Origin: Oscillibacter valericigenes
GTDB taxonomy: Bacteria > Bacillota > Clostridia > Oscillospirales > Oscillospiraceae
Assembly: GCF_021531915.1 (NCBI RefSeq)
Contig: NZ_JAFBIV010000005.1
Location: 1-64,000, forward strand
Length of the DNA: 64,000 nucleotides
Reading direction: 5' to 3'
Shown piece by piece: positions 49,113 to 60,140 of this stretch (position 1 is its first letter; every line of letters starts with the position of its first letter). Below the pieces are notes generated by a model, which was given only the letters and a program-made list of their open reading frames with translations, searched no databases and had not been told where the DNA came from. The translations under genes were made by a program, and so were the position numbers.

Positions 49113-49844
49113 TTACTGAGCGTCCTCAGCCTTCTCCTCGACGGCCTCGGTCTGCTCGCCCTGCTTGCCCTCCAGCACGGCGTTGGCCATGATGGAAGAG
49201 ATCAGCTTGATGGCGCGGATAGCATCGTCGTTGCCGGGGATGACGTAATCGATCTCATCGGGATCGCAGTTGGTATCGGCGATAGCGACCACGGGGATGC
49301 CCAGCTTGTGAGCCTCGGCGATGGCGTTGCGCTCCTTACGGGTGTCCACGATGAACAGAGCGCCGGGCAGCTTCTTCATGTCCTTCACGCCGCCCAGGTA
49401 CTTCTCCAGCTTGGCGATCTCGCCCATGTGCTTCATGACTTCCTTCTTGGGCAGCATATCGAAGGTGCCGTCCTCCTGCATGGTCTTCAGCTGGTTCAGA
49501 CGGTCCACGCGGGTACGCATGGTCTTGAAGTTGGTCATCATGCCGCCCAGCCAACGGGCGTTGACATAGTACTGACCGCAGCGGGTAGCCTCCTCGCGGA
49601 TGGCCTCCTGAGCCTGCTTCTTGGTGCCGACGAACAGCAGGGACTGGCCGCTCTCGCTCAGCTGACGGACGAAGCTGTAAGCCTCTTCCAGCTTGCGGAC
49701 GGTCTTCTGCAGGTCAACGATATAGATACCGTTGCGCTCGGTGTAGATATAGGGAGCCATCTTGGGGTTCCAGCGGCGGGTCTGGTGACCGAAGTGGACG
49801 CCTGCCTCCAGCAGGGCTTTCATGGATACGACGTTAGATGCCAT
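49113..49844 (-). CDS. rpsB: 30S ribosomal protein S2
   Basis: 243 aa. [24 protein letters not shown] and [17 protein letters not shown] are universal S2 sequences; an acidic tail rich in Glu ends the protein. The start MASNVVSMK is 11 bases after GGAGG, a long but workable distance. Confidence 0.97.
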
Positions 49845-49966
49845 AGTGTTGAGTTCCTCCAAATCAAATTTCGTTTTTACCTCCGGCGGCTTCATCCCCC
49901 CTGCTGACCCGGCTTTTTGCGGCCTAGCACGAACAGGAAGTCGACGCACCGTGCGGAATGCTGAAA
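49845..49966 (-). promoter_or_regulatory. rpsB leader (5' untranslated region)
   Basis: About 120 transcribed bases precede rpsB. They contain GGCCGCAAAAAGCCGG-type pairing and a GCCGCCGGAGG stretch near the ribosome site. S2 commonly autoregulates its mRNA, so a protein-binding leader is plausible; I cannot assign it to a known leader class. Confidence 0.35.
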
Positions 49967-49967
49967 T

Positions 49968-49996
49968 ATAATACCACGTTCACTGCGTCAATGCAA
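49968..49996 (-). promoter_or_regulatory. Promoter of rpsB-tsf
   Basis: Minus strand: -35 TTGCAT (49991-49996), 17-base spacer, -10 TATTAT (49968-49973). Confidence 0.78.
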
Positions 49997-50031
49997 GTAT
50001 TTTTTCCCAAAAAACCTCAAAAAATCTGGCT

Positions 50032-50319
50032 TTACCGGAATTTCCGCCGTCGTTTCTGCTCCAGATTGGGGTCCCGCCGCTGGAAGGGCTTGTCAATGAG
50101 GATGATGTCATCCCCAATGCGCTGGATGCACTCCCAGGGGATGTAAAACTCCTCCCCTCTACCGAACAGCCCGAAGAACCGGCAGGGACCGTAGACCACA
50201 ATGGCGATCACCTGTCCCTCCGGAACACGGATGTCCACGTCCGCCACGAAACCCAGCCGGCAGCCATCACAAATATTGATGACCTCCTTACACCGCAGAT
50301 CCCGGATCCTGCACTGCAT
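50032..50319 (-). CDS. ylmC: YlmC/YmxH family PRC-barrel sporulation protein
   Basis: 95 aa. MQCRIRDLRCKEVINICDG and GFVADVDIRVPEGQV match the PRC-barrel YlmC/YmxH family, often next to sigG, as here. The molecular role is unknown. Two tandem ATGs (50322 and 50319) follow AAGGAGG; the second has the better spacing. A sigma-E-like promoter lies just upstream. Confidence 0.88.
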   Translation of the reverse strand: MQCRIRDLRCKEVINICDGCRLGFVADVDIRVPEGQVIAIVVYGPCRFFGLFGRGEEFYIPWECIQRIGDDIILIDKPFQRRDPNLEQKRRRKFR

Positions 50320-50342
50320 CATCCATCCCTCCTTGTCAGGAA

Positions 50343-50372
50343 AGCCTATGCGCGCTCCCGGCTGTCCTATGC
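50343..50372 (-). promoter_or_regulatory. Sigma-E-like promoter of ylmC
   Basis: Minus strand: -35 GCATAGGA (50365-50372), 14 bases, -10 CATAGGCT (50343-50350). The -10 has the CATA and final T of the sigma-E consensus but not its central bases. Confidence 0.45.
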
Positions 50373-50397
50373 GCCCAGAAAGCGACAAAAGCTCCCA

Positions 50398-50427
50398 GTA
50401 TAGGAAAAATCGGCAGCGGAAATACTG
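50398..50427 (+). promoter_or_regulatory. Sigma-F promoter of sigG
   Basis: -35 GTATA (50398-50402), 15 bases, -10 GGAAATACTG (50418-50427), fitting the published sigma-F consensus GYATA and GGNRANAMTR at every position. It lies 30 bases before the ATG. Confidence 0.82.
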
Positions 50428-50457
50428 TCCCCAGAAGCTAACAAGGGGGCAGCAGCC

Positions 50458-51228
50458 ATGCAGGGAAAAGTGGAGATTGCGGGGGTCAATACCGCCAAAT
50501 TGAAGGTCCTGAAAAACGCGGAGACCATGGAGCTGCTGCGGAAGACCAAGGAGGGCGACCAGGAGGCCCGCCGTCAGCTGATCGAGGGGAACCTGCGGCT
50601 GGTGCTCTCCGTGATCCAGCGGTTCGCCAGCCGGGGCGAAAACGCCGACGACCTGTTCCAGGTGGGCTGCGTGGGCCTCATTAAGGCCATCGACAACTTT
50701 GATATCTCCCAGCCGGTGAAGTTCTCCACCTACGGCGTGCCCATGATCATCGGTGAAATTCGCCGCTACCTCCGGGACAACAGCGCCATCCGGGTGTCCC
50801 GCTCCATGCGGGATACCGCCTACCGGGTCCTGCAGGTCCGGGACCGCCTGATCTCGGAGAACCAGCGGGAGCCAACCGTGGAGCAGATCGCCAAAGAATT
50901 GGACATTCCCCGGGAGGAGGTGGTGTTCGCCATGGACGCCATCGTGGACCCGGTGTCGCTGTATGAGCCGGTGTATTCTGACGGCGGCGACGCCATCTGC
51001 GTCATGGACCAGGTCAGCGACACCCGCAATACCGACGAGAGCTGGACGGACCGCATTGCCCTGAAGGACGCCATGGCACGGCTGGACGAACGGGAGCGGC
51101 GCATTTTGTCCCTGCGGTTCTACGAGGGGAAGACCCAGATGGAGGTCTCCGCCGAGGTAGGTATTTCCCAGGCTCAGGTATCCCGTCTGGAAAAGGGCGC
51201 CATCAACACTATCAAAAAGAATATTTAA
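50458..51228 (+). CDS. sigG: RNA polymerase sporulation sigma factor SigG
   Basis: 256 aa, full length. It directs late forespore transcription. VEIAGVNTAKLKVLKN is the SigG-specific N-terminus; region 2 is NLRLVLSVIQRFASRGENADDLFQVGCVGLIKAIDNFD, region 3 starts at NSAIRVSRSMRDTAY, and region 4 ends with GISQAQVSRLEKGAI. The ribosome site is AAGGGGG. A sigma-F promoter drives it, as in Bacillus, and ylmC is divergent. Confidence 0.97.
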   Translation: MQGKVEIAGVNTAKLKVLKNAETMELLRKTKEGDQEARRQLIEGNLRLVLSVIQRFASRGENADDLFQVGCVGLIKAIDNFDISQPVKFSTYGVPMIIGEIRRYLRDNSAIRVSRSMRDTAYRVLQVRDRLISENQREPTVEQIAKELDIPREEVVFAMDAIVDPVSLYEPVYSDGGDAICVMDQVSDTRNTDESWTDRIALKDAMARLDERERRILSLRFYEGKTQMEVSAEVGISQAQVSRLEKGAINTIKKNI

Positions 51229-51266
51229 AAGGAAAAGAGGACGAAAAAGTCCTCTTTTCCTTTTAA
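51227..51266 (+). terminator. Intrinsic terminator of sigG
   Basis: A 16-bp stem (51227-51242 with 51249-51264) starts at the stop codon and ends in TTTT; its arms begin AAAAGG and end CCTTTT. Confidence 0.85.
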
Positions 51267-51326
51267 AATAGGGTCTTGCATTTCATTTTAGTTCATGATA
51301 TTCCTCTGGTAAAGGAGGTTGAAGCT

Positions 51327-51776
51327 ATGAATATGAATCTTGAAAACATTCCGGAGAACACCGTCATCTATCTGCGCCGGACAGGCCCCTACGGCGGGGA
51401 CAACCGCGACTTAATGGAACGCCTGAAAGCCTGGACCACCAGAAATGACCTGCTGGAAACCGGCACCATTTTGGGCATTGCCCGGGATGATCCCGCGCAA
51501 GCGCCGCCGGAGCGCTGCCGTTACGATGTCTGTCTGACTCTCCAGGGTCACTTCCCGGAACCGGAAGCGGGGATGTCTCTGGGACTGCTGCCCGGCGGGC
51601 GATATGCCTGCTTTCAGGGTCCTCACACACCAGAAGGCGTCCAGGCCCTCTGGCAGGATAGCTTTGCCGCCCTGCCGGAACTGGGCTTCTGCCCCGATCC
51701 GGCCCGTCCGGTGATGGAGCGCTACCGGCCGGAGCTGCTGGCCCAGGGGCTCTGCGAACTGTGCATCCCCGTCTAA
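51327..51776 (+). CDS. GyrI-like effector-binding domain protein
   Basis: 149 aa. IPENTVIYLRRTGPYGG, LGIARDDPAQAPPERCRYDVCLTL and GGRYACFQGPHTPEGVQALWQ resemble the C-terminal ligand-binding half of AraC regulators and GyrI/SbmC proteins. There is no DNA-binding domain, so it is a stand-alone small-molecule binder; the ligand is unknown. An AAAGGAGG ribosome site is eight bases before the ATG. A weak TTGCAT/TATTCC promoter precedes it. Confidence 0.82.
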   Translation: MNMNLENIPENTVIYLRRTGPYGGDNRDLMERLKAWTTRNDLLETGTILGIARDDPAQAPPERCRYDVCLTLQGHFPEPEAGMSLGLLPGGRYACFQGPHTPEGVQALWQDSFAALPELGFCPDPARPVMERYRPELLAQGLCELCIPV

Positions 51777-51778
51777 AC

Positions 51779-53383
51779 CTATTCTAACGAGCTGATATTG
51801 CCGAAGGTCCCGCCCTCCTCCGTCAGGATGAAGTCCGTGCTGACCTCCACATTCATATCGCCGGGGGTCTCACCACCGTCAGGGCACTCCGGGCGCTTGC
51901 CGTCCTCCGGCCGCTTCAGTTCAGACGGATCGATGACCGTGCCGTCAGGCAGGGTGATGGTGCCGTCCTCGTTGGGCTTTGGCCAATCCTTACCGGGCTG
52001 TCGGCCGGGGTCGCCCTCGGGCGGCACCATCCCCTCCGGTATCTCAAAGCCCTCGGGCGGCTCTCCCCCGTCAGGCCGGGGGCCGCCCATGCCGTGTCCG
52101 CCGGTCATTCCGGCGGCGCCGGCCAGCTGAGTTTCACCGTTCCAGAGAGTATAGGTCCCCTCCGTCAGGTCCGGGCTGGAGACTACCAGGTAGGTGAAGT
52201 CGTTAGCCGGGGTCCACTCCCCTGCCACGGTGCCGTCCTCCGCCTTCAGGGTGACAGTGGTGCCGCCCTGCTGGCGCTGGCGGAAACCAAACACCACATA
52301 GGGCTGGTCTCCGCCGTCGATGCGGTCCAGCATGTTGCCGGAGGCCGCCACGGTGCCGCCGTTGATGTAGATGCCGTTGTCAGAGTCGATACCCGCGTCC
52401 TGACTGCTGCCGCAGGCGGCGGCAATGACGGTGCCGCCGTTGATGACCAGCCAGCCGTTGGAGTCGATGCCGTCGCCCTCACCGGTGGCGCCGTCCACGT
52501 CGATGGTGAGCACGCCGCCGTTGATGGTGGTGACGGACACGCCGTCCTCGTTGGTGTTGATGCCGTCGTTGCCGGAGGTGATGTTGATGCTGCCGCCGTT
52601 TACCGTCAGGTGCAGCTCGGAATCCAGACCTTCGTTTTCGGCGGTGATGTTCAGAATACCTGTCCCCTGCTCTCCGCCGTCCACATTCATGGACATTTTG
52701 GAATAGAAGGCGCCGTCGTACTTGTGGAGCTTCTTGCTGTCCACCACTTCCGTGCCATCCTCATTGAGTTCCACGCTGTCCGGTTTGTAGATCCGGGCCA
52801 CGTAGGAGCCGGTGATGTTGTTGACCGTGCCGTCGGCGATGATGACATTTGCCCCGGCGGCAGAGGTGTCCACGTCTTTGACGGCGGTCTCCGTATCCGT
52901 GGAGCCGCATTCATAGACGTTGTAGAAGATCACAGCGGGAGCCACCGTGCAGGTGATATCCGCACCGTTCAGGATCAGGGTCACCACGGCGTTGGGGTCC
53001 TCTTCGGCGTCCTCTCCCAGGTCCACGGCTACCTGTCCGGCGGACAAGCTTCCGCTGAGGACATAAGTGCCCGGCTGGGTGATGTGGACCACCGTGTGGG
53101 CATTGGCTTCCGCCTGACTGTGTTCGTCATCTTCGGTGCCCTCGCCGTAGGCGATACCCTGGCCCTCCAGATAAAACACGATGTCATTGGCGGTGTAGAC
53201 AGCCGCCGTCTCGTCGGTGGAAACAGGCTGGCCGTCCACGGTGATGCCGCCATCGGATAAAAGAATGGCAGTCGCACCGTCATAGGTCGGTTGGGCTGTT
53301 TCCTGTGTCTCCGCCCTTTTCCCGCAGGCGGTCAGGGGTACCGCCAGCGCCAAAGCAAGCGCCAGCGCAGTCATTCGCTTCAT
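51779..53383 (-). CDS. Carbohydrate-binding (Cthe_2159-like) lipoprotein
   Basis: 534 aa. The lipobox PLTAC gives Cys20. The central part (about 100-410) is a series of short beta strands with repeated Asn/Asp-Gly turns (LHLTVNGGSINITSGNDGIN, ISSNG-like DGIDSNGWLVINGG) characteristic of the right-handed beta-helix family PF14262, whose Clostridium thermocellum member binds cellulose and pectin. A C-terminal region rich in Gly, Pro and Glu (about 420-510) is probably a flexible spacer. Ligand inferred only from the family. The start follows AAAGGACG. Confidence 0.82.
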   Translation of the reverse strand: MKRMTALALALALAVPLTACGKRAETQETAQPTYDGATAILLSDGGITVDGQPVSTDETAAVYTANDIVFYLEGQGIAYGEGTEDDEHSQAEANAHTVVHITQPGTYVLSGSLSAGQVAVDLGEDAEEDPNAVVTLILNGADITCTVAPAVIFYNVYECGSTDTETAVKDVDTSAAGANVIIADGTVNNITGSYVARIYKPDSVELNEDGTEVVDSKKLHKYDGAFYSKMSMNVDGGEQGTGILNITAENEGLDSELHLTVNGGSINITSGNDGINTNEDGVSVTTINGGVLTIDVDGATGEGDGIDSNGWLVINGGTVIAAACGSSQDAGIDSDNGIYINGGTVAASGNMLDRIDGGDQPYVVFGFRQRQQGGTTVTLKAEDGTVAGEWTPANDFTYLVVSSPDLTEGTYTLWNGETQLAGAAGMTGGHGMGGPRPDGGEPPEGFEIPEGMVPPEGDPGRQPGKDWPKPNEDGTITLPDGTVIDPSELKRPEDGKRPECPDGGETPGDMNVEVSTDFILTEEGGTFGNISSLE

Positions 53384-53471
53384 ATCATCACGTCCTTTCC
53401 GGTTGATGTGGACAGGATAGCAGAGATTTCTGAAATCTTTCTGAAATGCTTCCCTGCATTCGACGCCAGCC

Positions 53472-54858
53472 TCACCGCAGTTTTCGGCAGGTGTGGATAA
53501 TGGCAATTGCAGAGATCACGAAGGTCAGGGCATCAGATACCGGCACGGACCACAGCACGCCGTCCAGCCCCAGGAACAGCGGCAGCAGCAGGGCAAAGCC
53601 CACGCCGAACACCACCTCCCGGACCATGGACAGCATCGTGGACAGCAAAGCCTCTCCCAGGGATTGAAGGTAGATGAAGGTGGCCTTGTTGATGCAGGCC
53701 AGGGGCAGCAGGCAGAGATAGACCCGGAAAGCCTTGACAGCGAACTCCGTGTAGTAATGGCTTTCGTTGGCCGCGCCGAAAATCTGAATCAGCTGACCCG
53801 GGAGGAACTCCGCAATCAGTAATGTCACGATACCCACGACAGTCTCCGCCGTCAGCAAACAGATGAACAACTGACGAGCCCGGTCCTTCCGTCCGGCGCC
53901 GATGTTGTAGCCCACGATGGGGATGCAGCCAGCCGCCATGCCGATCACGACGGAAATCACGATCTGGAAGAACTTCATCACGATGCTCACCACCGCCATG
54001 GGGATCTGTGCATGCTGTTCCTGACCGAAAATCTCGTCCATAGCGCCGTACTTCCGGATCATGTTGTTGATGGCCGCCATGGCCGCCACCAGGGAGATCT
54101 GGGCCAGGAAGCTGCACACACCCAGGGGAATGAAATGGCGGATCACGCCCCAGCAGAGGCGGAAACTACTCTTTTCCAGACGGACGGGTTTATCTTCAGC
54201 TTTCGCTGGGGGATGATGGTGCGGCGGTTGCCACCGTGCTGGCCAGATCCTGACAGCGGCGCTGGCGGTGTGGTATCTCTGCCACATGAAACACCGGGTC
54301 CAGAACGATGTTGGCAGCAGCACCGGCAAGAGTGGAAGCCATGGCGAATCGAGGACTGCCGTCAGAACGGATGATGGGATTCATGGCCTGGCCAAACATG
54401 TAGAACGGAATGCCCAGCGTAATCCAGAAGAAATACTCCTTGGCCTGGGCGAACGTCTCCGCGTTGACCCGGCCGCCGAAGGCAGTGAGGATGGGTTCCC
54501 GAAAAATCAGATACATGACGGTCAGAAGCAGGCTGCCGGCCACACACAGCACCACGGAGTTTCCGATGCTCCGGTGAGCATTTTCCTGATTGCGGGAGCC
54601 CAGGCAGATGCTGACATAGGCACAGCAGCCGTCGCCGATCATCACAGCCACAGCCAGGGCCACCACCGTCAGAGGGAACACAACGCCGTTGGCAGCATTA
54701 CCATAGGAGCCCAGATAGTCCGCGTTGGCAATAAAGATCTGGTCCACGATGTTGTAAAGGGCCGCCACCAGCAGGGATATGACACAGGGAACCGCGTATT
54801 TCCGCATCAGGGTCCCCGGCTTTTCTTCCACCAGAAATGCATTCTTCAATTCGCTCAT
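53472..54858 (-). pseudogene. MATE family multidrug exporter, disrupted by an internal inversion
   Basis: The N-terminal half (54858 down to 54292) reads as a normal MATE protein through NIVLDPVF; the C-terminal half (from PVRLEKSSFRLCWGV, 54188 down) is also normal, to THTCRKLR. Between them 103 bp are inverted. Turned back, the segment reads IFSFRWGMM, then GAAVATVL, then QILTAALAVWYLCHMK, exactly the expected sequence, but two G-runs are each one base short, so frames shift twice. With the inversion undone and two Gs restored the protein would be 462 aa, the family norm. In the present state the exporter should not be made. The start follows AGGAGG. Confidence 0.85.
54189..54291. other. 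103-bp inverted segment inside the MATE gene
   Basis: The segment begins TTTATCTTC and ends CACATGAAA on the plus strand. Its plus-strand reading, not the minus, matches MATE sequence. Edges share GTTT/AAAC, too short for classic phase-variation repeats. The two missing bases lie near 54219-54220 (TGATGGTGCG) and 54241-54242 (GCTGGCCAG). Confidence 0.8.
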
Positions 54859-54878
54859 GTGTTACCTCCTGAACACGC

Positions 54879-54940
54879 AAAAAAAATACAGCGTGAGGCC
54901 GCAACCGGATTTACGCAGTTACGCCACACGCTGTATTTTT
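54879..54940 (-). promoter_or_regulatory. 5' hairpin with T run before the MATE gene (attenuator)
   Basis: On the minus strand AAATACAGCGTG pairs with CACGCTGTATTT; an inner GGC/GCC and GTAACTG/CGGTTGC continue the stem to over 20 pairs. Eight T follow, then AGGAGG and the ATG. The MATE promoter would start the transcript at the hairpin's first bases, so nearly all transcripts should stop unless the hairpin is prevented. No known riboswitch class recognised. Confidence 0.55.
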
Positions 54941-54941
54941 G

Positions 54942-54970
54942 ATTATATGTGGTTTTCGCAGCAGGCGCAA
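54942..54970 (-). promoter_or_regulatory. Promoter of the MATE gene
   Basis: Minus strand: -35 TTGCGC (54965-54970), 17-base spacer, -10 TATAAT (54942-54947). Confidence 0.68.
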
Positions 54971-54985
54971 AGGTGGTTTTTCACA

Positions 54986-55024
54986 AATTTTCTTCTGAGA
55001 AAATTGACCTTTTCCCGGGAAAAG
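54986..55024. promoter_or_regulatory. Two palindromes between divergent MATE and thioesterase genes
   Basis: AATTTTCT-TCTG-AGAAAATT (54986-55005) and the perfect 16-bp CTTTTCCCGGGAAAAG (55009-55024). The second fills the spacer of the thioesterase promoter, a classic repressor position. Confidence 0.5.
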
Positions 55025-55032
55025 CGTACAAT
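55004..55032 (+). promoter_or_regulatory. Promoter of the thioesterase gene
   Basis: -35 TTGACC (55004-55009), 17-base spacer, -10 TACAAT (55027-55032), 29 bases before the ATG. Confidence 0.75.
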
Positions 55033-55061
55033 CATACCATCTGATTCAGGAGTGCTGTTTT

Positions 55062-55472
55062 ATGGACTATCAAAAAATCAAGGACTTTCGCAATACTCAT
55101 AATCCCTATTCCCAGCGGCTAGGCATTTTCGTGGAGGAAATCGGCCCCGGCTATGCCCGGGTCACCAAAACCGTGGGACCAGAGGACGTGAACCCCCTGG
55201 GTGTCCCCCACGGTGGTGTGTATTTTTCCATGGCAGACACCGCCGGCGGCTCGGCCATGGCTTCTCATGGCCGCATGGCTGTCACCGTGAACTGCAATTA
55301 CAACTTCATGCGCAGTGCCAAGGTGGGCGATACCCTGACCGCTGAAGCCCGTGAAGTCAAAGCCGGAAGAACCCTCTGCGTCTATGACGTGCGGATCACC
55401 GACCAGGACGGAATGCTGCTGGGCACCGGAACCTTCACGTTCTATCAGTTGGAACAGGAGATCGATTTTTGA
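55062..55472 (+). CDS. PaaI-family hotdog-fold thioesterase
   Basis: 136 aa, single hotdog domain. NPLGVPHGGVYFSMADTAGG is the family active-site region (HGG with following acidic residue), and NYNFMRSAKVGDTLTAEAREV follows as in PaaI. It hydrolyses acyl- or aryl-CoA thioesters; the natural substrate is not predictable. A good ribosome site (AGGAGTG) precedes the ATG. Confidence 0.9.
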   Translation: MDYQKIKDFRNTHNPYSQRLGIFVEEIGPGYARVTKTVGPEDVNPLGVPHGGVYFSMADTAGGSAMASHGRMAVTVNCNYNFMRSAKVGDTLTAEAREVKAGRTLCVYDVRITDQDGMLLGTGTFTFYQLEQEIDF

Positions 55473-55492
55473 ATGGAATACAATTACCCATA

Positions 55493-55529
55493 AAAAAGCT
55501 GACGTCAATTTTTGGCGTCAGCTTTTTTT
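55493..55529. terminator. Bidirectional terminator, thioesterase and glnS
   Basis: AAAAAGCTGACG and CGTCAGCTTTTT pair (12 bp) with T/A runs on both sides, between converging genes. Confidence 0.9.
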
Positions 55530-55531
55530 GC

Positions 55532-57262
55532 TTATTTTTTGAAGCTGTCCTTCAACGACACGCTGCGGTTGAACACCATGTGTTCGGGGCTGGAGTCCTT
55601 GCTGTCCAGGCAGAAATAACCCAAACGCATGAACTGGAAGGACGGGGCGGTCTTTCCCTTCTTCTCCGTCTGTTCATAGACCTCAGCTGCAGCCTTCAGG
55701 CCAGCCTCCACCTTGCAGCCCTGGAGGACCTCCAGGGAATCGGGATTCAGGCACTCCAGGAAGTCTTTGTCGGCGCCGTCGGGAGACTCGTCGGAGAACA
55801 GGTTGTCGTAGAGCCGGACCTCGGCGTCCACGGCGGTGGCGGCATCCACCCAGTGGATGGTGGCACCCTTCACCTTCCGGCCGTCGGCGGGGTCGCCGCC
55901 CCGGCTCTCGGGATCGTACTCACACAGGACCTCGGTGATGTTGCCGTTCTCATCCCTCACGCAGCCGGTGCAGGTGATAAGGTATGCACCCTTCAGACGG
56001 CACTCGGGCCCGCCGGGGAACAGACGCTTATATTTGGGCACCGGGGTCTCCAGGAAGTCGTCGGCCTCGATATAGAGATTCCGGGAGAAGCTGACCTCCC
56101 GGGTACCGGCGGCGGGGTCCAGAGGATTGTTTTCCACGGTGACGGTCTCGGTTTTGTCCGCGGGATAGTTGGTAATGGTCAGCTTGATGGGCCGCAGAAC
56201 GCCCATGACACGCTCAGCCGTCTCGTTCAGGTCCTCCCGCAGGCAGTGCTCCAGGAAACCGTACTCTACCACATTTGCGCTCTTTGCCACGCCGATACGC
56301 TCGCAGAAATTGCGGATGGACTTGGGAGTGTAGCCCCGGCGGCGCAGGCCGCAGAGGGTAGGCATCCGGGGATCGTCCCAGCCGGAGACCTTGCCGCCCT
56401 CCACCAGAGCCCGGAGCTTCCGCTTACTCATAACCGTGTGGTCAATGCCCAGTCGGGCAAATTCGATCTGCCGGGGCTTTGCGGGCAGGTCGCAGTTGTC
56501 CACCACCCAGTTGTACAAAGGACGGTGGGCCTCAAACTCCAGAGAGCACAGGCTGTGGGTGATACCCTCCAGCGCATCCTGAATGGGATGGGCGAAATCG
56601 TACATGGGATAGATACACCACTTGTCGCCCTGGCGGTGATGGTGCATATGGTTGATGCGGTACAGCACGGGGTCCCGCATATTAAAGTTACCGCTGGCCA
56701 GGTCGATCTTGGCCCGCAGAGTCATGGCGCCGTTGGGGAACTCTCCCGCCCGCATCCGGGCGAACAGGTCCAGACTCTCCTCAATGGGACGGTCCCGGTA
56801 AGGGCTCTTGGCGGGCACACCGATGCTTCCCCGGTACTCCTTGAACTCCTCGGGGCTCAGCTCGCAGACATAGGCCAGTCCCTTTTTGATGAGGCCAACC
56901 GCCTGACGGTAGTCTTCCTCAAAGTAATCAGAGCCGTAGAAGAAACGGTCACCCCAATCGAAGCCAAGCCAGTGGATATCCTCCTGGATAGCGTCCACGA
57001 ACTCGGTGTCCTCCTTGGTGGGGTTCGTATCGTCCATTCGCAGATTGCAGAGGCCGCCGTACTTCTCAGCCGTGCCAAAGTCAATGGTCAGGGCCTTGCA
57101 GTGGCCGATGTGCAGGTAGCCGTTGGGCTCCGGGGGAAACCGGGTATGAACAGTCATGCCCTCGAACTGTCCGCCGGAGGCGATATCCTCTTCAATAAAA
57201 GCATGGATGAAGTTCCGGCTCTCAGCCGCTCCCTCCTGCGTATTTTTGATCTCTTCTGCCAT
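55532..57262 (-). CDS. glnS: Glutaminyl-tRNA synthetase
   Basis: 576 aa. It charges tRNA-Gln directly. Class I motifs are intact: PPEPNGYLHIGHCKA (HIGH) and VMSKRKL (KMSKS form). The C-terminal anticodon-binding beta barrels (LKLTITNYPADK-type start at about 335) are present. Many Firmicutes lack GlnS and use amidation of Glu-tRNA-Gln, so a full-length enzyme is worth noting. The start MAEEIKNTQ follows GGGAGG. Confidence 0.95.
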   Translation of the reverse strand: MAEEIKNTQEGAAESRNFIHAFIEEDIASGGQFEGMTVHTRFPPEPNGYLHIGHCKALTIDFGTAEKYGGLCNLRMDDTNPTKEDTEFVDAIQEDIHWLGFDWGDRFFYGSDYFEEDYRQAVGLIKKGLAYVCELSPEEFKEYRGSIGVPAKSPYRDRPIEESLDLFARMRAGEFPNGAMTLRAKIDLASGNFNMRDPVLYRINHMHHHRQGDKWCIYPMYDFAHPIQDALEGITHSLCSLEFEAHRPLYNWVVDNCDLPAKPRQIEFARLGIDHTVMSKRKLRALVEGGKVSGWDDPRMPTLCGLRRRGYTPKSIRNFCERIGVAKSANVVEYGFLEHCLREDLNETAERVMGVLRPIKLTITNYPADKTETVTVENNPLDPAAGTREVSFSRNLYIEADDFLETPVPKYKRLFPGGPECRLKGAYLITCTGCVRDENGNITEVLCEYDPESRGGDPADGRKVKGATIHWVDAATAVDAEVRLYDNLFSDESPDGADKDFLECLNPDSLEVLQGCKVEAGLKAAAEVYEQTEKKGKTAPSFQFMRLGYFCLDSKDSSPEHMVFNRSVSLKDSFKK

Positions 57263-57304
57263 TGGCTTTGTCCTCCCAATGCGTATTATTTCACGTGGAG
57301 TTAT

Positions 57305-57333
57305 ATTATACAGAATCCGATCAAAAATTGCAA
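57305..57333 (-). promoter_or_regulatory. Strong promoter of glnS
   Basis: Minus strand: -35 TTGCAA (57328-57333), 17-base spacer, -10 TATAAT (57305-57310). Confidence 0.88.
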
Positions 57334-57417
57334 GCAGAATCAATCCCTGTCCAAAAGCTGTCCAAAAGCCAAACCTTTTGATTTCCGGAAAATTTTCACA
57401 GTTTTTCCCGAAAAGTA

Positions 57418-57446
57418 TTGCAAATTTTCTCCGAAAACACTATAAT
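57418..57446 (+). promoter_or_regulatory. Strong promoter of ptb
   Basis: -35 TTGCAA (57418-57423), 17-base spacer, -10 TATAAT (57441-57446), 70 bases before the ATG. Confidence 0.88.
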
Positions 57447-57516
57447 TATATACCGCATGAGTTAGGTATATAAGCATACTGACAATACAGAAAGGATAGA
57501 AAGGAAGAAAAAGAAT

Positions 57517-58452
57517 ATGGAACTGAAAAATTTTGATAACATTCTGAGCCTGATGCCCAAGCTGGACCAGCCCAAGCGTGTGGTTCTGGCCGGTTCCGAC
57601 GGCGAGAACATGCTCAAGGGCCTGTTCAAGGCACAGGAGGCAGGCTTTGTGCAGCCGGTGCTGGTGGGCGACCGGGCCCGCACCATGGTCATGCTGGAAA
57701 AGCTGGGCCTGGAGAAAGAGCCCTACACCATGGTGGAGACCCATCCCGGCCACGATGTGGCACAGGCTGCTATCGACGTCATCCGTTCGGGCGATGGCGA
57801 TATTCTGATGCGCGGCAACATGAGCACCCGCCGTTTCCTGATGGATCTGATGTCCAAGGAAAACGGCCTGCGGACGGACCGTCTGATGACCCACGTTTCC
57901 CTGGTGTCCCTGCCGGAGTATCCCAAGCTGCTGGCCCTGTCCGATATGACCGTCATCATCAAGCCGGACCTGAACCAGAAGAAGGAGATCATCCGCAACA
58001 CCGCCGACGCCCTGAAGGCCTTCGGCTATGAGAATCCCAAGCTGGCCCTGCTGTCCCTGGTGGAGAAGGTGACCTTCCACATGCAGGACACCGTGGAGGC
58101 ACAGGCTCTGGTGGCCGAGCAGGCCCGCAAGCCCTTTGCCGACTGCGAGCTTTGGGGCCCCATCGCTTACGACCTGATCCTCAGCAAGGAGGCTGCCCGC
58201 CTGAAGAACTATGACTGCCCCTATTCCGGCGGCGGGTTCGACGGCATCATCGCCCCCGACCTGTCCACCGCCAACACCCTGGTGAAGAGCTGGCTGATCC
58301 ATGCCCGCGCCACCACCTGCGGCGCTGTGGTGGGCGCCAAGATCCCCGTGGCTCTGACTTCCCGCTCTGCCGCCGAGGAGGAGACCTACCTGTCCCTGGT
58401 GTTCTGCACCATTCTGGACGCCTGGCGCAAGAAGCAGAAGGAAGGCAAATAA
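57517..58452 (+). CDS. ptb: Phosphate butyryltransferase-like enzyme
   Basis: 311 aa, phosphate acetyl/butyryltransferase family. KRVVLAGSDGENMLKGLFKAQEAGF, ILMRGNMSTRRFLMDLM and FDGIIAPDLSTANTLVKSW (family: ...DNIxSGNxLxK) are recognisable. The reaction would be acyl-CoA plus phosphate to acyl-phosphate. A butyrate kinase gene normally follows; here a terminator does, so the partner must be elsewhere or the enzyme acts on another acyl group. Codon use is strongly biased to frequent C-ending codons, suggesting high expression. Confidence 0.87.
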   Translation: MELKNFDNILSLMPKLDQPKRVVLAGSDGENMLKGLFKAQEAGFVQPVLVGDRARTMVMLEKLGLEKEPYTMVETHPGHDVAQAAIDVIRSGDGDILMRGNMSTRRFLMDLMSKENGLRTDRLMTHVSLVSLPEYPKLLALSDMTVIIKPDLNQKKEIIRNTADALKAFGYENPKLALLSLVEKVTFHMQDTVEAQALVAEQARKPFADCELWGPIAYDLILSKEAARLKNYDCPYSGGGFDGIIAPDLSTANTLVKSWLIHARATTCGAVVGAKIPVALTSRSAAEEETYLSLVFCTILDAWRKKQKEGK

Positions 58453-58468
58453 GTTCCTACATACCAGA

Positions 58469-58499
58469 AGAGACCGCCGTGAAGGCGGTCTCTCTTTTT
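58469..58499 (+). terminator. Intrinsic terminator of ptb
   Basis: AGAGACCGCC and GGCGGTCTCT pair (10 bp), followed by CTTTTT. Confidence 0.88.
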
Positions 58500-59094
58500 A
58501 TGTTTCTTCCTGCATGGCCTGCTCCAGGGCCTCCCGGTCATACAGCAGGTTCAGGGCCTCCAGCATTCCGTTGGCGGTCAGATGCTCCGGCAAGTCCAGC
58601 TTTTTCAGCAGCGCCTGCCGCTTGGCGGCGCTGTCCGGACCGCCGGTGAGGCCCAAAGCGAACAGGTCCGCCTTGGTGATGGGCTCCTTCGCCGGGACGC
58701 ACTCCTCTTCCCCGTCCAGAAAGGTGGCTCCGGCCCGTTCCAGCGCCGCCAGCAGCACCTCGGGCTTCATGCCCTCCACGCCCAGCTTGCCCTCTTTTCC
58801 GGCATGGCGCTTCCGGCGCTCCTTGCCGTGGATATCCGGGATATAAGCCTGCTTGACCCGGTCCTTGGGCAGGGCGCCCTTGAGGTAGTTGCGGATGACA
58901 AAGCCGGCGCCGTCGCTGTCCGTCAGGACGATCAGTCCCCGCTCCTCCGCAAGTCTGCGGAGAAAGGCCAGCTTTTCTTTATCATTGAACACAGAAAAGC
59001 CTCCCAGGGTGACCACGGTGGCATCCACCACCTGAGAGATGGTATGTTTATCGTAGCGGCCCTCCACCACGATGACCTCTTTGATCTTCCTCAT
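58498..59094 (-). CDS. rnmV: Ribonuclease M5
   Basis: 198 aa. It matures 5S rRNA. An N-terminal Toprim domain (KEVIVVEGRYDKHTI with catalytic Glu; VLTDSDGAG Asp pair) and PDIHGKERRKRHAGKEGKLGVEG are diagnostic. It overlaps holA by four bases. Confidence 0.93.
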   Translation of the reverse strand: MRKIKEVIVVEGRYDKHTISQVVDATVVTLGGFSVFNDKEKLAFLRRLAEERGLIVLTDSDGAGFVIRNYLKGALPKDRVKQAYIPDIHGKERRKRHAGKEGKLGVEGMKPEVLLAALERAGATFLDGEEECVPAKEPITKADLFALGLTGGPDSAAKRQALLKKLDLPEHLTANGMLEALNLLYDREALEQAMQEET

Positions 59095-60140
59095 TTCCGC
59101 CTTGCCCCCAGCCGCACCAGCAGCAGCTTCAATTCCCCCGCCGCGTCGATGCTTTTCTCACTCTTCATGCGGCGGTCCAGAGTCTGGCACATCTTCACCG
59201 CGTCGGCGCACCAGTCTGCCGTGGTCCGTTTGGCCGCCGTCAGCAGCAGCTTTGCCGGGTAGTCGCTCTTCATCTCCCACAGCTCCATGAGCCAGTACTT
59301 GTCCTTGCCGCTGTCGATGGCCATGCGGGCGGTGTAGATGCGGCGTAGCTGACTGCCCAGAGCCGCCAGGATCATAATGGGCTCCGTCTGCATTTTCAGC
59401 AGGTCCCCTAGAATGGAGGCCGCCTGGTCGTAATTCCCCTGCAGCACCGCGTCGCTGAGCTTGAACACCTCGGCAGACAGCACCGGGTCCGCCACGGCGT
59501 CGATGTCCTGCTGGGTGATGGCCTTGCCCTTGGCGTAGGCGCCAATCTTCTGGATCTCCGGCACCAGCCCCGTCATCAGGCCGCCGCAGGTGAAGATCAA
59601 ATACTCCGCCGTCTGGCGGTCGATCTCCTTCCCCAGCGCCTTGAAGCGGCGGGCGATCCAGGCCACCAGGTCGCTGCTGTCGGCAGCCCGGAACTCCACA
59701 TCCTCCACATGGTCGCTGAGGGCCTTGTACAGCTTCTTCATGGTCTTGTTGGGCTTGTAGGCCACGGTATCGTAGACGAAGACCACACAGCAGTAAGGCG
59801 GGATATCCTCCAGGAAAGCGATCATTTTCTCCCGCTGCTCCTCATTCAGCTTGAAGAGGTCGAAGTCCGTCACCACGATGAGGGTCCGCTCCGCCATCAT
59901 GGGCATGGCCTCTGCCATCTCACTGAGGCTCTGGACCGTCAGGTCCTTCCCCTCCAGCTTGTGGTAGTTGAACTCCTCGAAGCCACCGGGCACCAGCTGC
60001 TTCCGCAGCTCCCCCAGGTAATACTCCCGCAGGTAGCTCTCCTCTCCGTAGAAAATATAGGCACAGCCCGGAGTTCCGGCCTTCAAATCGTCCTTCAGCT
60101 TCTGAAAGGCTTCGTTTTTTGTTTTCTTCGCGTTCGCCAT
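59091..60140 (-). CDS. holA: DNA polymerase III delta subunit
   Basis: 349 aa. Clamp-loader wrench that opens the sliding clamp. YIFYGEESYLREYYLGELRK and the clamp-binding region MAEAMPMMAERTLIVVTDFD followed by AAA-like and C-terminal collar domains fit HolA. It lies between rnmV and comEC, the usual order comEC-holA. Confidence 0.92.
   Translation of the reverse strand: MANAKKTKNEAFQKLKDDLKAGTPGCAYIFYGEESYLREYYLGELRKQLVPGGFEEFNYHKLEGKDLTVQSLSEMAEAMPMMAERTLIVVTDFDLFKLNEEQREKMIAFLEDIPPYCCVVFVYDTVAYKPNKTMKKLYKALSDHVEDVEFRAADSSDLVAWIARRFKALGKEIDRQTAEYLIFTCGGLMTGLVPEIQKIGAYAKGKAITQQDIDAVADPVLSAEVFKLSDAVLQGNYDQAASILGDLLKMQTEPIMILAALGSQLRRIYTARMAIDSGKDKYWLMELWEMKSDYPAKLLLTAAKRTTADWCADAVKMCQTLDRRMKSEKSIDAAGELKLLLVRLGARRK

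Follow-up and report, generated by a model that had tools for sequence, protein, structure and literature searches.

A one-off micro-inversion has very probably destroyed the gene for a MATE-family exporter in this Oscillospiraceae species, and we regard this as a genuine event in the genome. As part of this explanation, we are fairly confident that the exporter gene is a dead gene rather than a switch. The window, that is, the whole stretch of 64,000 nucleotides analysed here, covers the first 64 kb of a contig 128 kb long. The genome amounts to 2.49 Mb in 63 contigs, with a completeness of 97.68%.

The Pfam MatE model (PF01554) matched both flanking pieces of the locus above the curated cut-off (E 6.9e-19 and 2.5e-16), so both are members of the family of MATE efflux transporters. 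The top NCBIfam match of the pieces was PRK09575, far under its equivalog cut-off. The nearest intact relatives are proteins of 462-463 aa, whereas the gene in the window is interrupted. It lacks a single frame of about 460 codons and is divided into ORFs of 220 and 285 aa, and a full-length protein is impossible. The order of residues on the minus strand is ...LDPV(F), foreign residues, PVRLEK.... The preliminary description had reported that the minus-strand homology stops after LDPVF and restarts at PVRLEK. We saw the same, and the plus strand in between matches the coding strand of the orthologues. The C-terminal part has two compensating gap positions in blastn alignments against the congeners G086 and G081. 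The features of the locus are listed in Table 1.

Table 1. Features of the interrupted MATE locus and its surroundings (positions in the window).
Feature	Position	Strand	Basis or content
MATE-family exporter pseudogene, whole locus	53472..54858	minus	Pfam MatE on both flanking pieces; syntenic congener orthologues
N-terminal part, 189 codons	54292..54858	minus	collinear with orthologues; gap-free alignment to G086 and G081
Inverted segment, 103 nt	54189..54291	plus	plus strand is the coding strand of orthologues
C-terminal part, 239 codons including stop	53472..54188	minus	collinear with orthologues
Left junction GTTT	54289..54292	minus	comparison with orthologues
Right junction AAAC, inverted copy of left GTTT	54188..54191	minus	differs in 17/17 chosen orthologues
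G-run, 1 base short against orthologues	54218..54219	plus	window's frame kept across it by P0001
G-run, 1 base short against orthologues	54241..54242	plus	P0001 frame departs from the window exactly here
Truncated 220-aa ORF: N-terminal half and nonsense tail	54196..54858	minus	ORF listing
285-aa ORF: nonsense head and C-terminal half	53472..54329	minus	ORF listing
Nine neighbouring proteins	49116-60140		first five: ribosomal protein S2, sigma factor, GyrI-like, carbohydrate-binding, thioesterase; rest: class I (E and Q) tRNA synthetase, PTA_PTB-family, Toprim/DUF4093, DNA polymerase III delta subunit

The orientation of the segment was compared with that in relatives. When the segment alone was searched by blast against the loci of eight congeners, in seven the match lay on the opposite strand from the flanks (77-82% identity, E 6e-11 to 7e-23; in G012 across just 82 nt). 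The search in the eighth, the distant G023, gave chance-level matches only. Two larger and partly overlapping sets were also scored. Among the best 80 of 574 confirmed GTDB r220 loci for the 220-aa ORF, the segment was opposite in 66 and in the same orientation in none; 13 had no segment match and one lacked a flank. Some of these 13 loci are probably search misses, since G008 matched in one segment search and not in others. The genus search covered 86 genomes, and 19 matched, including the window's own. The 18 non-self places comprised 15 in the opposite orientation, none in the same, and three with a segment match only. Thus, a second genome with the window's orientation was not found among the resolved places of this genus-wide search. 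The frame from the N-terminal to the C-terminal flank was open in 75 of 79 r220 loci and in 14 of 15 congener loci having both flanks. An earlier count of 90/124 loci was set aside, because places had been fetched repeatedly and some loci belonged to other genes.

The segment is therefore collinear in place but reversed against its orthologues. The nearest relatives, G086, G081 and G082, are all in the ordinary orientation, as expected if the window carries the derived state; the flanks of G086 and G081, the closest congeners, are 85-86% identical to those of the window. The reversal against all resolved relatives is far beyond chance. These counts bear out the 103-bp internal inversion at 54189-54291 that the preliminary description had placed in a MATE exporter gene, and the comparison with sister genomes that it had proposed as a check resolved no orthologue in the window's orientation. 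A search of plasmid records for the locus returned no match. According to the record titles, several relatives were sampled from deer, sheep or goat gut or rumen. The congener with the best segment match was G044 (locus L112), at 86.5%, though its flanks match at 72-74%; this high identity is probably chance in a conserved stretch. A paralogue origin of the segment, prompted by G044, was dropped, as the match lies about 3 sites in 103 from that of G086 and is thus indistinct from it.

The segment also differs from its orthologues in length. The flank-to-flank interval was 105 nt in all 17 orthologues that we had chosen from the retrieved loci for the interval and edge comparison, versus 103 nt in the window. 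Against all seven orthologues aligned, the window has a single-base gap in each of two G-runs, which accounts for the two missing bases and agrees with the initial reading that each run is one base short. If deletions fell evenly across 1387 nt, the chance of both lying within the 103-nt segment would be about 0.006, a value computed post hoc.

A second allele with the same arrangement was found in the protein database. P0001, the top relative of the 220-aa ORF, is a protein of 238 aa from a 1,247-base contig and represents a cluster of six members; the length limit of this search left out the intact 462-aa proteins. P0001 continues across the whole reversed segment and both of its junctions. 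Two upstream substitutions (residues 46 and 156) set it apart from the window. Residues 177-206 fit one frame of the window and residues 207-235 another; the frame changes once, at 54241. The tail of P0001, used alone as a query, retrieved that cluster only. By these differences P0001 is distinct from the window's own sequence at the level of the predicted protein, the only form in which it is known, and a separate sample is not proven. Since the frame of P0001 changes at 54241 alone, the deletion at 54218-54219 is common to P0001 and the window and the one at 54241-54242 is not. The latter thus does not stem from the founding event, because P0001 is without it.

P0126, a protein of 224 aa from a 2,164-base contig, with five members, starts inside the C-terminal half and has the best C-terminal identity (96%) among the 120 matches listed. 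P0126 and the window share H59, C110 and T116 in the C-terminal piece, whereas all 35 intact relatives compared carry Y, Y and A; these 35 are our own choice from the 120 matches listed (7999 candidates scored), and many are near-identical. This suggests that P0126 is another disrupted allele. It could also be a contig-end fragment. The nearest intact proteins among the 120 matches listed are about 90-91% identical. Two other relatives at about 90% identity have tails that look frameshifted by eye, namely P0002, whose tail looks shifted right after RWGM, near one of the window's deletions, and P0003. The G013 orthologue (L018) carries an in-frame stop in the N-terminal half, an independent loss of the MATE gene. 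The exporter gene may have been lost repeatedly among the relatives.

The second allele also bears on the assembly chimera that had been listed among the initial interpretations. A chimeric contig or consensus artefact could have misplaced a reversed fragment, and both the 63-contig draft state of the genome and the confinement of the two deletions to the segment would fit such an error. We nevertheless consider it very unlikely. The two junctions recur in P0001, a distinct allele, the edges are precise, a further disrupted allele is suggested by P0126, and the aligned parts of the window showed no local inversion besides this one. Given that a distinct database allele carries both junctions at the protein level, the inversion appears to be inherited rather than an assembly artefact. 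The scan for local inversions against the contigs of five syntenic relatives detected this segment as the sole case; it covered aligned lengths of about 46 kb (G086), 46 kb (G081), 12 kb (G082), 45 kb (G007) and 45 kb (G013), and needs matches of E 1e-5 or better, so that very short inversions are missed. A candidate second inversion at 51224-51267 was dropped as a terminator-like palindrome. The palindrome, listed on the minus strand, lies just downstream of the sigma-factor gene and forms a strong hairpin of 19 pairs accompanied by a T-run.

The quality of the surrounding assembly was assessed against G086. Of 25 frame-changing length differences in 9394-52366, 16 fell in mechanically chosen ORFs, and all 16 either cancel within the ORF or sit less than 100 nt from an ORF end, the starts being uncertain. 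No interior uncancelled frameshift against G086 was seen in this interval, which disfavours a generally error-ridden assembly. The identity to G086, the closest congener, was 89.7% in 9394-52366 versus 83.4% in 52428-55508, as if the latter block had a different history.

The edges of the segment provide information on how it was turned. The right-edge triplet in the 17 chosen orthologues is AAG in 16 and AAA in one (G020), and the following base is G in 13, T in three and A in one. It is never C, hence AAAC does not occur. Both altered right-edge bases of the window are those expected if the left edge had been copied in reverse, and one of them (AAA) also equals ordinary variation in G020. 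The short GTTT edges pointed out in the preliminary description are thus present, but with AAAC in 0 of 17 chosen orthologues, the comparison indicates that they probably arose in part from the event itself, rather than being a repeat that was already there. A simple cut-and-turn of such an ancestor would not yield GTTT on the left together with AAAC on the right, whereas one forward and one reverse copy of the left edge would, which favours copying with two switches.

We therefore prefer template switching in the broad sense, which we regard as the probable mechanism. The inversion would have arisen once, prior to the divergence of the alleles. At the left edge, replication would have moved over to the complementary strand, a step that would require about two matching bases; it would then have copied about 103 nt backwards and returned to the original template. 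GTTT would have been copied a second time as AAAC, replacing the right-edge bases. Later drift would account for the loss of one more base in the window allele and for the substitutions at conserved residues that are private to each allele. The scar does not uniquely prove template switching, since it consists of two bases, of which G020 has one as well, and the flanking arms do not rise above background. The gapped arm alignment at the edges scored 13, which was equalled by 1083 of 9100 random pairs (12%), and 296 of 63889 places have an exact 4-nt inverted repeat at similar spacing. We rejected the idea that the flip is driven by a longer, hidden inverted repeat, as the arms are at background and the 17 chosen orthologues are inconsistent (scores 6 to 14).

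The same product could also arise by another pathway, in which a double-strand break in the segment is repaired by microhomology-mediated break-induced replication. The accessible text of PMC8755829 proposes this route for microinversions between human and chimpanzee whose flanking repeats are very short or imperfect, on the ground that two polymerase jumps seem to need arms longer than 3-4 nt; the repeat here is 4 nt, and the extended arms do no better than background. The small lesions clustered in the segment are compatible with error-prone repair synthesis, but one of the two deletions is absent from P0001 and so does not belong to the founding event. In addition, the edge bases resemble arm copying, which the same portion of PMC8755829 ties to template switching. 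We consider the break-induced route unlikely, though it deserves some weight.

A further reading is that the segment is a reversible intragenic inverton, whose ON/OFF state controls the exporter. Intragenic inversions in bacteria were reportedly described by Chanin et al. in 2024. Several observations stand against such a switch here. The edge repeat is an exact match of only 4 nt with arms at background. No recombinase occurs among the nine neighbouring proteins at this locus (Table 1). The segment is two bases short; judged by its length, turning it would still leave the C-terminal frame shifted, and the two halves would not be joined in one open frame. None of the 120 matches listed is an allele of this lineage with the segment in the ordinary orientation, the nearest intact protein being 91% identical. 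According to the accessible part of PMC11892184, invertons have repeats of 10-40 nt and an invertase. The window resembles them in having a flipped DNA segment in a bacterium, but as compared with that description it has no 10-40 nt repeats, no recombinase in the nine neighbours and missing bases, and two states are not in evidence. A switch of this kind is highly improbable. Of the four interpretations first offered, a micro-inversion in a decaying gene and a template-switch event were supported, whereas the ON/OFF state and the assembly chimera were disfavoured.

The timing of the inversion was considered from codon positions. Differences between the window and G086 lie at third codon positions in 59 of 77 cases in the N-terminal part, 13 of 17 in the segment and 75 of 108 in the C-terminal part. 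The same bias is found between the intact genes of G086 and G081. As the differences are mostly at third positions, constraint on the gene lasted through most of the period after the split, and on that scale the inversion is recent. In a polarised count of codon positions, the window lineage had no surplus of changes outside third positions (16/37, versus 13/28 in G086; Fisher p 0.81), and faster decay of this lineage was rejected on this ground. Given this null result, the case for decay rests on few residues, namely private changes at sites invariant in the 35 relatives: I166, M185 and V215 in the window, M192 and S205 in P0126, and E46 in P0001.

Micro-inversions and template-switch mutations are already known. 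Template-switch mutations at quasipalindromes are described for E. coli in the available text of PMC7202029. As far as PMC8604942 was accessible, template switching at inverted repeats in yeast leads to homogenisation of the arms and inversion of the spacer. These spacer inversions are similar to our case in that they lie in a coding gene and the edge bases are altered toward a better arm match. Their arms exceed 9 bp and their spacers have 2-5 changed bases, as opposed to arms of 4 nt and a segment of 103 nt here. The human-chimpanzee microinversions, in the accessible sections of PMC8755829, are likewise precise, come with no other rearrangement and adjoin inverted repeats of at least 3 nt. 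They measure 17-33 nt, whereas the present segment measures 103 nt and lies within a coding gene of a bacterium. Compared with these yeast and primate examples, as given in those portions of the two papers, the segment is far longer and the arms are far shorter. Tentatively, and with the balance tipped slightly against it, we propose that template switching, aided by a microhomology of about 2-4 nt, produced an exact inversion of 103 nt, which became established in the species and silenced the exporter. Our literature search, in sources mostly outside subscription papers and accessible in part, did not find a bacterial gene inactivated by such an inversion; we claim no first.

The locus presents a clean, recent case of a bacterial gene killed by a precise micro-inversion, and the second allele points to inheritance. 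As far as can be told from the genome sequence, the biology of the host would be little affected, with one exporter lost. The case could seed a search for similar events that are annotated merely as frameshifted genes. If frequent, such events would amount to a neglected way in which bacterial pseudogenes arise, recorded in alignments as unexplained divergence and frameshifts.
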